Assembly (NCBI GenBank): GCA_902168195.1
Contig: CABHOJ010000100.1
Span: forward strand, 1 to 40,146
DNA length: 40,146 nt
From: an uncultured Methylotenera sp.
Lineage (GTDB): Bacteria > Pseudomonadota > Gammaproteobacteria > Burkholderiales > Methylophilaceae
Reading direction: 5' to 3'
The notes below the pieces were generated by a model that made no database searches, was not told where the DNA came from, and saw only the letters and a list, made by a program, of their open reading frames with translations. Of the stretch, positions 6,618-20,878 are shown piece after piece (within the stretch, counting starts at the first letter, position 1; each line of letters begins with the position of its first letter). The position numbers and the translations under genes were made by a program.

Positions 6618-8486
6618 ATGAAATTATCTGGTCTCTCTCGCTATTTCGTCATCGCATGCACGGTCGCGGCCCTGTTGCTGATCGAAACGCAATGGTTGCA
6701 CGGCCTCCAGTCGTTGGAGAACCGCTTGTCCGATGCCATGATTCGGCAATTCGCGCTCAACAGCCGCCCTGACCCCGCCATCGTCATCGTCGATATCGAT
6801 GAGCGCAGCCTGGCACTGATGGCGGAATCGGTCGGCCGCTGGCCCTGGCCGCGCGCCATGCATGCCGAACTGGTTGAGGGGATATCCCGTCAGCAGCCCA
6901 AGGCCATCGTCTTCGATATCCTGTTCAGCGACCCTGACCTGACGCGTCCGCAGGATGACCAGTACTTCGCGGAGGTCATCGGGCGACTCGACCACCTCTA
7001 CTTCCCGATGCTGTTGCTCGATAACGAGGACGCGGGGAAAGGCATCCCCCTGAGCGAATACGCCGGACGACTCGGCATCAGCCCCGGCCCGGCCGCCAAC
7101 CAAGAGGCGACGGTGAGCCTGGTGTTGCCATTAGCGGCGATGCTGGAGACCGGGCGCATCGGTACGCATAACGCGATCGCCGATAAGGACGGCGTGGTAC
7201 GCAGCTATCCTATATATATGAATAGCAGCGGCTGGCAGGTGCCGTCTCTGCCCGCGCGCCTGGCGGTAGACCTTGGCTACCCGGTGCCGCAAAGCCAGAA
7301 CCTGCTACTCAACTGGCACGGCGGTGCCCTGGCGTATCAGCGGGTCAGCTATGCCGATGTTTACGCGGATCTTCAGCGTAGCCAGCCGCAGCGACCGACC
7401 GATGAGTTCAAGGATAAGCTCGTCATCGTTGGCGCGACCGCCACCGGCTTGCATGACGTGCGCGCGACGCCGGTGGATGGGTTCTATCCGGGTGTAGAGA
7501 TCCTCGCGACCGCGATGGACAACCTGAAGAACGGCGACAGCCTGCACAGGCTGCCTCATCTGTGGTCGGCGATCAGTGGCATCCTGCTCATCGGCCTGCT
7601 GGCATGGGGATTTGTCGCACGCCGGCAAGTACTGAGCTTGGGCATCGCACTCGGGGCGGTCTCGGCGGTCACCCTACTGGGGGCTTACCAGGCCCTGCAT
7701 GCCAGTTTGGTGCTGTGGGTACTGTCGCCGCTCGTTTTCGCATGGCTATATTTCCTGGTAGCCGCCTTCATGGAATACCTGGAAGAGCGCAAGGCGCGTG
7801 AACGTGCCGTCGCCACGTTCAGTCGCTTTCTTGATCCGCGCGTGGTACAGGCGCTGGTCGCCAAGGGTGTGACCCTGGCATCGCTAAGCGGCAAAAGCCG
7901 CCAGATCAGCGTACTGTTCTCCGATATTCGCGGCTTCACCACACTGTCCGAAGGCAGTACGCCGGAAGAGGTGGTTGAGTTGCTGAATGCGTATTTCACG
8001 CTGCAGGCGGAAGCGGTGTTCCAGCAGCAAGGTACGCTGGACAAATATATCGGCGATGCCATCATGGCTTTCTGGGGTGCGCCGACCGAACAGCCGGACC
8101 ATGCCTTGCGGGCGGTGGCCGCCGCTATGGACATGAGTGACAAGCTGGAACAGTTCCGCGAACAACTGGTGCAACAGGGCAAACCGGTGGGACAAAGCCT
8201 GGAGATCGGAATCGGCGTGCACAGCGGTCCGGCCGTGGTCGGTTTCATCGGCTCGCCCAATAAACAGGAGTACACGGCCATTGGCGATACGGTCAACCTG
8301 ACCAGCCGTATCGAGGGCCAGACCAAGGGGATCAGTCGTGTGCTGGTCTCGGAAGATACGCGCCAGCTATGCGAGTTGCAGGCCAACGGACATTGCCCGT
8401 ATGATTTTATCGATCACGGCAGTTATGAAGTCAAAGGGCGAAGCCGGGCAGTACGCCTGTACGAGCCCAAAAGAAGAGTCGCCTGA
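6618..8486 (+). CDS. CHASE2-domain class III adenylate/guanylate cyclase
   Basis: N-terminal CHASE2-like region (DPAIVIVDIDERSL...GRWPWPR), transmembrane segments, catalytic FSDIRGFTTLSE...DKYIGDAIMAFWGAP...GIGVHSGPAVVGFIGS. Confidence 0.93.
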   Translation: MKLSGLSRYFVIACTVAALLLIETQWLHGLQSLENRLSDAMIRQFALNSRPDPAIVIVDIDERSLALMAESVGRWPWPRAMHAELVEGISRQQPKAIVFDILFSDPDLTRPQDDQYFAEVIGRLDHLYFPMLLLDNEDAGKGIPLSEYAGRLGISPGPAANQEATVSLVLPLAAMLETGRIGTHNAIADKDGVVRSYPIYMNSSGWQVPSLPARLAVDLGYPVPQSQNLLLNWHGGALAYQRVSYADVYADLQRSQPQRPTDEFKDKLVIVGATATGLHDVRATPVDGFYPGVEILATAMDNLKNGDSLHRLPHLWSAISGILLIGLLAWGFVARRQVLSLGIALGAVSAVTLLGAYQALHASLVLWVLSPLVFAWLYFLVAAFMEYLEERKARERAVATFSRFLDPRVVQALVAKGVTLASLSGKSRQISVLFSDIRGFTTLSEGSTPEEVVELLNAYFTLQAEAVFQQQGTLDKYIGDAIMAFWGAPTEQPDHALRAVAAAMDMSDKLEQFREQLVQQGKPVGQSLEIGIGVHSGPAVVGFIGSPNKQEYTAIGDTVNLTSRIEGQTKGISRVLVSEDTRQLCELQANGHCPYDFIDHGSYEVKGRSRAVRLYEPKRRVA

Positions 8487-18268: not shown

Positions 18269-19963
18269 TCAGGATTGATTCACACTTTCCAGTCGGAAAC
18301 GTACCGCGCCATCCCGATTGTCAGCCAGGCTCAGGCGATAGCCGGCTTGTGCAGATTGTCTATGCGCGTGGTACAAGCCGATCCCCAGGCCCGTCTCTGA
18401 ACTCACATTCTTCTTGAACAGCTGTTCGGCGACCGCCGCCGGCATGGCGGCTCCCGTGTCCACGACGTCGATACAGAAACGGTCGCTTCCGGATACGGCG
18501 CACTGAATGGTGATGCCTGGCTGCTGTTTGGACTTTGCGATGGCATTTTGGATGAGGTTATCCACCACGCTATCCAGTACTTCGGCATCGACCTCGATGT
18601 TGGCGAGCTCCGGGCTGCCGAAGGTGAGATTGCCAACCTGACTGTAACGCTGTTTCAAGCTCGTCCACCAGTAGGCGACATCCATCATGCGAACGCCTTC
18701 CTTGCGCGGCGCCTGTAATTTATCCAATGTCAGGGCGAGCCGTTGGTTGAGTTGCGGCAGCTGTCTGCGCATCAATGCCAGCAAGCGGTCACTCTCGTTA
18801 TCCGGGGTTTGTTCGGCCGCACTGCATAATGCGCTCATCGATTGGATCAGGTTCTTGATGTCATGCGTCAGACGCGCGCCGGTCTCATAGACCGCCTGCA
18901 TATAGGCAGACTGCCGCATCGTCTCCTCACGTCGTTTGGCTTCATAGAACTCTCCGACGATCTGGGTCAAGAGCTTGACGTGGATGGTCAACGCGGGCGT
19001 CAGCGGCCATTTCGTGTACAGCGACAAATGAAAGTTATGGAATTCGAAATCCGCCCGATGACTGCCTTTGTATCCATAGGTACCGTGGCTATCATCCGTG
19101 ATCCAGCTCAGCCCGCTGACCCAGGGCAACGTGGAGATCTCCAGCATCGCTGATTGCGTGAATTGTTCCGCGCTCGATTCCTGCTCAGCATGTTCCGCGA
19201 TGTTGCGTACCCATTTCTCAAACGGCATCCCTACACTGAGCAAATAGCGGGACAGTAATTGCCCAAGGCCGGCGAAGCCCGCACGCGGGTTCCATAGCCA
19301 GCTGATCGTCAGCAAAGTGAAGGCTAATCCAAAGATCACTTTCAGGATGACTTCAGCATAATTGGACGAACTCGATGCCTGGATGGCGAAGCTGCCTAGT
19401 ACCAGGATCACCGCAAGTAGCATCAGCAGAAGGGTGTAGAAGAAATCCAGGATCGGAGGCTGGTCGGCTTCCTCGGGTTCGCGGAACGTCAGCAGGATGC
19501 CCAAAGGCAATGTCGGCAATAAGTAGGTGACGACGAAATGGGTGGCTGCGATGTCTTCGGATGCGTCTAATAGTTTTGGCACCACCCACATGATGAGCAC
19601 CGAGAGCAGGTAACCCGCCGCCAATAGATAGCCGATGCGCGTGGAACGTGCGCGCGATGAGAATACCCGGCCACCCAATAAACCGAACAGGCCGGTCAGC
19701 CAGAGGGCCAACAACCACCATCCTGCGAAAAAGATCAGGCTGACCCCAGCGATGAGGAACAGGATGGCAGCTGGTGGCGAGAGCTTATCGTTAGTACGCC
19801 AGATGGGTTGCCATAAGAGAAACAACCCATAGTGACAAAGGATGATGGCGCGATCGACGATATCGTTGAACCCGAAAAGGAGGACGACATGCAATGAAAG
19901 CAGCATGAGCGCGAGTTCCCATTGGCGCTCTTTGAAGTGTTTGATGCTTGATGGCAGCTTCAT
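18269..19963 (-). CDS. Multi-TM sensor histidine kinase (PrsK-like C-terminal kinase domain), no adjacent response regulator
   Basis: Several N-terminal TM helices; H-box-like TGARLTHDIKNLIQ; N-box DNLIQNAIAKS; DTGAAMP; GLGIGLYHAHRQ. Confidence 0.85.
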   Translation of the reverse strand: MKLPSSIKHFKERQWELALMLLSLHVVLLFGFNDIVDRAIILCHYGLFLLWQPIWRTNDKLSPPAAILFLIAGVSLIFFAGWWLLALWLTGLFGLLGGRVFSSRARSTRIGYLLAAGYLLSVLIMWVVPKLLDASEDIAATHFVVTYLLPTLPLGILLTFREPEEADQPPILDFFYTLLLMLLAVILVLGSFAIQASSSSNYAEVILKVIFGLAFTLLTISWLWNPRAGFAGLGQLLSRYLLSVGMPFEKWVRNIAEHAEQESSAEQFTQSAMLEISTLPWVSGLSWITDDSHGTYGYKGSHRADFEFHNFHLSLYTKWPLTPALTIHVKLLTQIVGEFYEAKRREETMRQSAYMQAVYETGARLTHDIKNLIQSMSALCSAAEQTPDNESDRLLALMRRQLPQLNQRLALTLDKLQAPRKEGVRMMDVAYWWTSLKQRYSQVGNLTFGSPELANIEVDAEVLDSVVDNLIQNAIAKSKQQPGITIQCAVSGSDRFCIDVVDTGAAMPAAVAEQLFKKNVSSETGLGIGLYHAHRQSAQAGYRLSLADNRDGAVRFRLESVNQS

Positions 19964-19989: not shown

Positions 19990-20027
19990 ATGTCGAATTT
20001 TTGGCAATATTGACGTATTTTCGACAT
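19990..20027. promoter_or_regulatory. Inverted repeat ATGTCGAA-N22-TTCGACAT, candidate activator binding site upstream of the pilin gene
   Basis: Half-sites at 19990-19997 and 20020-20027; centre-to-centre 30 bp, about three helical turns. Confidence 0.45.
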
Positions 20028-20099: not shown

Positions 20100-20115
20100 T
20101 GGCACAAAAAATGCA
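20100..20115 (+). promoter_or_regulatory. Candidate sigma-54 promoter (-24/-12) of the pilin gene
   Basis: TGGCAC-AAAAAA-TGCA; GG (20101-20102) and GC (20113-20114) separated by exactly 10 nt as in the RpoN consensus. Confidence 0.75.
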
Positions 20116-20186
20116 GATGACTCTTTGCGCTAATCTCGTTTGCGTAACTATCAACCATTCAGCGCCATGGGGCGAAGGATAACATA

Positions 20187-20840
20187 ATGAAAAAGCAGGT
20201 TGGTTTCACCCTGATTGAACTGGCGATCGTGTTGGTCATCATTGGATTGCTATTGGGCGGCGTGCTCAAGGGGCAGGAGTTGATCAATAGTGCCAAGGTC
20301 AAGAATATGGCGACTGATTTTAAGAATATCCAGGTCTACATCTATGGATATCAGGATAAGTTCAAGGCGCTCCCGGGTGACGATGCTGCCGCTGTGGCCC
20401 ATGTGACCGGCACCTTGGCTACTACGCCAGGTACTGCAGGCAACGCCATCATCGAAGGTGCCTGGAATTCAACCACGGTGACCGACGAATCCTATCTTTT
20501 CTGGCAGCACGTGCGACTGGCTGGCCTGGCTGCAGGCAGTACCGATGCAACTACGCCAGCGACCTACGTGCCACGCAATGCGGATGGCGGACGTATCGGG
20601 GTTCAAAGCGTCAGTGGGTTCACTGCAGTTTCTGTCCTCCCGACCGCTGGTGGTATCTCTGGTGCGTATGTCATTTGTTCTGACGGTATCCTGGGTAAAT
20701 TCGCCAAGCAACTCGATACGACGCTGGATGACGGTATCGGCAGCACAGGCTCGATGCGTGTCGTCGTAAATGGCACACCGAGTATCGGTGTCGCCGCTCC
20801 TGTGGATTCCACAACCTATCTGGTGTGTCTGGCGTTCTAA
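20187..20840 (+). CDS. Type IV pilin/pseudopilin-like prepilin
   Basis: Class III signal MKKQVG^FTLIELAIVLVIIGLLLGG; two C-terminal-half cysteines (VICSDG, YLVCLAF). Confidence 0.92.
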   Translation: MKKQVGFTLIELAIVLVIIGLLLGGVLKGQELINSAKVKNMATDFKNIQVYIYGYQDKFKALPGDDAAAVAHVTGTLATTPGTAGNAIIEGAWNSTTVTDESYLFWQHVRLAGLAAGSTDATTPATYVPRNADGGRIGVQSVSGFTAVSVLPTAGGISGAYVICSDGILGKFAKQLDTTLDDGIGSTGSMRVVVNGTPSIGVAAPVDSTTYLVCLAF

Positions 20841-20851
20841 TCTGAATAGTT

Positions 20852-20878
20852 AAAAAGCCCGCTCAGGCGGGCTTTTTT
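20852..20878 (+). terminator. Intrinsic terminator downstream of the pilin gene
   Basis: aaaaagcccgc-tcag-gcgggcttttt followed by T. Confidence 0.9.

Follow-up and report, generated by a model that had tools for sequence, protein, structure and literature searches.

The pilin gene and its sigma-54 promoter

The window, i.e., the whole 40,146-nt stretch of Methylotenera DNA that was analyzed, contains on its forward strand a gene (20187–20840) for a 217-aa prepilin, which probably serves as major pilin in an MSHA-type pilus. The only Pfam domain detected in this protein was the N-terminal methylation motif (N_methyl, above its cut-off). It has the features of type IV pilins, including the GFTLIE prepilin signal, a conserved glutamate and a long N-terminal helix (9–59 in an AlphaFold model with a pLDDT of 91), and G6, F7 and E11 were invariant in a 58-member alignment. 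The best partial matches in NCBIfam were the N-termini of GspH and GspG, which fell below the cut-off. A fold search yielded the type IVb pilins CofA and TcpA as the best, but weak, matches (TM ~0.45), and because of this weak similarity a type IVb assignment was dropped. Several relatives have tandem pilin copies (L189:1-2000; also G075, G095 and G107).

The gene is followed on the same strand by its own intrinsic terminator (20852–20878; folding energy -19.2 kcal/mol, z -4.85), as had been proposed. A simple terminator scan did not pick up this hairpin, probably because no T tail remains once its A/T flanks have paired.

Upstream of the pilin gene, a -24/-12 (sigma-54) promoter element, TGGCACAAAAAATGCA, is located on the forward strand at 20100–20115, 87 nt ahead of the ATG at 20187. 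Its GG (20101–20102) and GC (20113–20114) are separated by exactly 10 nt, and the element thus has the GG-N10-GC core of the TGGCAC-N5-TTGC consensus. From promoter geometry alone, transcription is predicted to start at 20126 on the forward strand, 12 nt 3' of the GC, which would give a leader of 61 nt. A good match to a ribosome-binding site, GAAGGA, is present at 20174–20179 (forward strand). The geometry therefore agrees with the original prediction, which described an RpoN-type element, a start near 20126 and a leader of about 60 nt.

It was also proposed there that the motif be sought upstream of orthologs and across the genome. The element was found in 56 of 76 pilin upstream regions (our own and those of relatives), with GG and GC in every one, compared with a mean of 1.5 and a maximum of 6 in shuffled sequences. 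Its distance to the start codon in these 56 regions varied from 54 to 128 nt. Our element deviates from the consensus at a single position (T12 to A), where it differs from 53 of the 56. G094 was an apparent exception; its nearest pilin carries TGGCACACTTCTGGCG. In the whole assembly, the degenerate consensus TGGCAYRNNNNWTGCW had 16 matches, several of which precede glnA-, nrtA- and nasT-like genes (the downstream ORFs were named by eye), and its reversed control had none. The genome does encode rpoN, whose absence would have spoken against the idea, and only one sigma-54 is present.

The motif is not rare by itself. The strict TGGCAC-N5-TTGC pattern had no match within the window, and 19 window sites, including that of the pilin, scored at least 18.5 with our own weights, 2 of the other 18 equaling or exceeding the pilin site. 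A chance motif would not be ruled out by such a single-sequence score. It is ruled out by conservation across upstream regions, and it is for this reason that the promoter is convincing. Thus, the data strongly support 20100–20115 as a real sigma-54 promoter, with the start site and rpoN dependence as predictions, and they strongly support the view of the pilin as a sigma-54-controlled, monocistronic gene. As a separate observation, a sigma-54-like site, TGGCACGGCAATTGCT, occurs on contig C78 of the same assembly (L045:1501-1516), 5' of a glutamate-cysteine-ligase-like gene (named by eye).

Putative activator sites and a divergent histidine kinase

Two putative activator sites of the TGTC-N8-GACA type, assigned to neither strand, were detected further upstream: a distal site, TGTCGAATTTTTGGCA (19991–20006), and a proximal site, TGACGTATTTTCGACA (20011–20026), 20 bp from it. 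The pair is located about 75–110 bp 5' of the -24 element, in agreement with the range of roughly 80–150 bp 5' of the start expected for sigma-54 activators. Allowing at most one mismatch, TGTC-N8-GACA was present in 32 of the 37 motif-positive upstream regions of our own family (shuffled sequences: mean 1.4, maximum 5) and in none of the 15 own-family regions lacking the promoter motif. It was often doubled, with 20-bp spacing, between kinase and promoter. At the order level the pattern was less clear (7/19 upstream regions). A degenerate pattern of the paired site matched only once, at 19991–20026, in our own assembly (1.68 Mb, 77% complete).

The divergent gene (18269–19963, reverse strand), on which the original prediction was silent, encodes a 564-aa membrane histidine kinase. 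Domain searches, alignment and a structure model suggest about eight N-terminal membrane helices followed by an H367 box and an ATPase domain. The phosphoacceptor histidine and the ATP-binding motifs are in place: H367, N469/N473, D502/G504 and G525/G527/G529 were invariant in 25 aligned kinases. The model was of moderate quality (pLDDT 76, pTM 0.43) and was used only to count helices. Among named relatives, there was one useful match, a kinase from a Methylotenera metagenome-assembled genome (54%). The paired sites are 28–63 bp 5' of the kinase start codon, and it is possible that they also mediate feedback on the kinase gene.

An NtrC-type regulator at the head of an MSHA-type cluster

Four strong matches to NtrC-type activators were found in the genome, whose assembly is fragmented: a GlrR-like protein, NtrC, a PilR-like protein beside a PilS-like kinase, and a protein encoded by the first gene of a pilus cluster on contig C51 (L065:11589-13025). 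In this cluster, the regulator gene is followed by MshM-, MshL-, MshN-, MshE- and MshG-like genes. The secretin MshL scored 271 bits against a TIGR02519 cut-off of 250, the MshE-type ATPase has an MshEN domain and the MshG-like inner-membrane protein has a T2SSF domain, which characterizes the cluster as MSHA-type. Contig C107 (L062:2241-3352), on which a prepilin gene is followed by a moeB-like gene, an order shared with G001 and G010, probably continues the C51 cluster (L065:1-13025).

The kinase and the regulator are on separate contigs in our assembly, and in our own family the pilin and the kinase are flanked by ccs and mla genes and are separate from the assembly cluster. In G116, which belongs to another family of the order, the regulator, mshM-L-N-E-G-like genes, prepilins, kinase and pilin form a single locus of ~18 kb. 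The absence of pilus assembly genes near the pilin, noted previously, holds for the genes scanned in the window but not for the system, whose assembly genes are on other contigs. Another gene in the window, at 6618–8486, encodes a CHASE2-adenylate/guanylate cyclase.

Regulator upstream regions mostly lacked both the promoter element and the sites (1/30 each), which led us to reject self-control of the regulator operon via the same sites and makes the pilin the likely target. Since the head of the assembly operon has no TGTC-N8-GACA sites, the pilin subunit would be the switched component. From these comparisons, the likely cognate regulator of the kinase is the NtrC-type activator heading the C51 cluster, and the two probably act as a dedicated pair.

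Co-occurrence of kinase, regulator and promoter

We combined 58 promoter-positive and 19 promoter-negative genomes in a single table. The kinase was present in 55 of the 58 and in none of the 19 (G022, in which it is a remnant, was entered as kinase-less), and the regulator in 56/58 versus 0/19. Fisher values, which ignore the relatedness of genomes, were 3e-15 for the kinase, 4e-16 for the regulator and 0.058 for PilR. On the pilin tree, whose weak support precludes a formal test, no row showed a mismatch between promoter and regulator labels; of the 12 inferred changes, only 2 were on well-supported branches, and the 2 supported independent pairs were both concordant. Kinase, regulator and promoter are gained or lost together, with almost perfect tracking across the 77 genomes.

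MshL was detected in all 58 promoter-positive genomes and in 13 of the 19 promoter-negative ones. Thus, the pilin is not solitary, as originally described, but co-occurs with an MSHA-type assembly cluster. The other 6 promoter-negative genomes have the pilin without MshL, which shows that the link of the pilin to the MSHA machinery is not strict. One might argue from such genomes (G003, G019, G028 and G048), and from the GspH/GspG matches, that it belongs to the ordinary type IVa pilus, or is a pseudopilin, and is not specifically linked to MSHA. We consider this unlikely in view of the MshL distribution and the single locus in G116; moreover, the pilin is broken in two MshL-negative genomes, G041 and G051, small genomes whose copies (G041:C76, G051:C29) contain stop codons, an apparent decay. 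Co-occurrence and the G116 layout instead suggest that the pilin is probably the main subunit of the MSHA-type pilus.

Another explanation is that the kinase does not act via the C51 regulator and that the two are merely lost together with one shared island. Island loss by itself would yield co-occurrence, and the two genes occupy different contigs in our assembly; in G010 and G052, about 200 kb separates them. However, in our own family they co-occur although unlinked, and MSHA-type clusters can persist without either gene. Such clusters (MshL about 50% identical), with neither kinase/regulator nor pilin promoter, were observed in G017, G018, G035, G065, G025, G002 and G024, and possibly represent another cluster lineage under other control.

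G042 and G109 also bear on this question. No kinase ortholog was found in either genome, and their activators (L185:3394-4461 and L187:14221-15297) have the AAA+ and Fis-type DNA-binding domains but no receiver (Pfam). In G042, no kinase gene separates ccsB from the pilin, the regulator ORF, preceded by three tRNA genes, starts just ahead of the AAA+ domain, and the pilin promoter and both TGTC-N8-GACA sites are kept. In G109, TGGCATGATTCTGGCA is located 109 nt ahead of the pilin start. Loss of kinase and receiver with retention of the promoter would be expected of a kinase that acts on the receiver and an activator that acts on the pilin promoter. These genomes may be viewed as a natural experiment that supports a chain from kinase to receiver to sigma-54 to pilin, and they help make the shared-island explanation improbable.

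Finally, control by PilS/PilR, suggested in the original prediction by analogy with pilA of Pseudomonas, where PilR and sigma-54 bind together at the pilA promoter, is very improbable and was rejected on co-occurrence: a PilS/PilR-like pair is indeed encoded elsewhere in the genome (L058), and the hallmark elements of PilR sites, NifA-like TGT-N11-AGA and GTCT (PMC6058289), are not unlike TGTC-N8-GACA, but PilR was found in 15 of the 19 promoter-negative genomes versus 55 of the 58 promoter-positive ones, being absent from G008, G040 and G042, and the PilS-like kinase is not the one encoded adjacent to the pilin.

Proposed mechanism and comparison with known systems

We consider it quite likely that a dedicated kinase/NtrC-type regulator pair drives the sigma-54 promoter at 20100–20115 of an MSHA-type major pilin gene. 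In this scheme, the membrane kinase (18269–19963) would phosphorylate the regulator encoded by the first gene of the MSHA cluster (G000:C51), the phosphorylated regulator would bind the paired sites at 19991–20026, and its AAA+ domain would open the sigma-54 holoenzyme at the promoter, so that only the pilin subunit of the pilus would be switched. We infer phosphotransfer, DNA binding, transcription and the major-pilin role by comparison. A more tentative idea is that the pilin is the sole target of the switch, that the kinase might gauge the membrane pilin stock as PilS does for PilA, and that kinase and receiver might have been lost together repeatedly, leaving an unphosphorylated, constitutive activator.

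The PilS/PilR system of Pseudomonas also combines a polytopic membrane kinase, an NtrC-type regulator and a sigma-54 promoter of the major pilin (PMC6058289). However, the kinase and regulator described here are not orthologous to PilS/PilR, whose look-alikes are encoded separately; the kinase is divergent from the pilin, the regulator heads the assembly genes, and the cluster is MSHA-type rather than PilB/Q. PrsK/PrsR–sigma-54 control of PEP-CTERM genes was, like the present system, discovered by phylogenetic profile (PMC1569441), and RpoN1 dependence of pepA was shown (PMC9850573). An activator motif, a -24/-12 element, a large intergenic region and a monocistronic surface-protein gene are common to both systems. 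The kinase C-terminus and the regulator are distantly related to PrsK and PrsR and score far below the respective cut-offs (65.5 versus 300 bits for TIGR02916; 357.5 versus 502.6 bits for TIGR02915), and the target is a pilin instead of a PEP-CTERM gene. With the Vibrio cholerae MSHA system it shares MshL above the curated cut-off, an MshE-type ATPase with a c-di-GMP-binding domain and an MshG-like protein; it differs in the dedicated kinase/NtrC-type regulator and the sigma-54 pilin promoter, and the pilin resembles MshA at the N-terminus only. A literature search, in which subscription journals were thinly covered, found no paper on a kinase/sigma-54 switch of an MSHA-type pilin.

Thus, the general logic is known from PilS/PilR and PrsK/PrsR, whereas the paired putative activator sites, the divergent kinase and the link to an MSHA-type cluster are new. 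An orphan-looking pilin is linked in one step to a pilus, to a kinase/regulator pair and to a putative binding site, and this applies to other families of the order as well as to our own, which is probably Methylophilaceae, judging from the Methylotenera match and from small, streamlined relatives. Ascribing sigma-54 pilin promoters to PilR by default should be avoided. The lineages lacking kinase and receiver make the signaling chain testable, and the prediction is that in these bacteria the output of the MSHA-type pilus would be set by transcription of its subunit alone.
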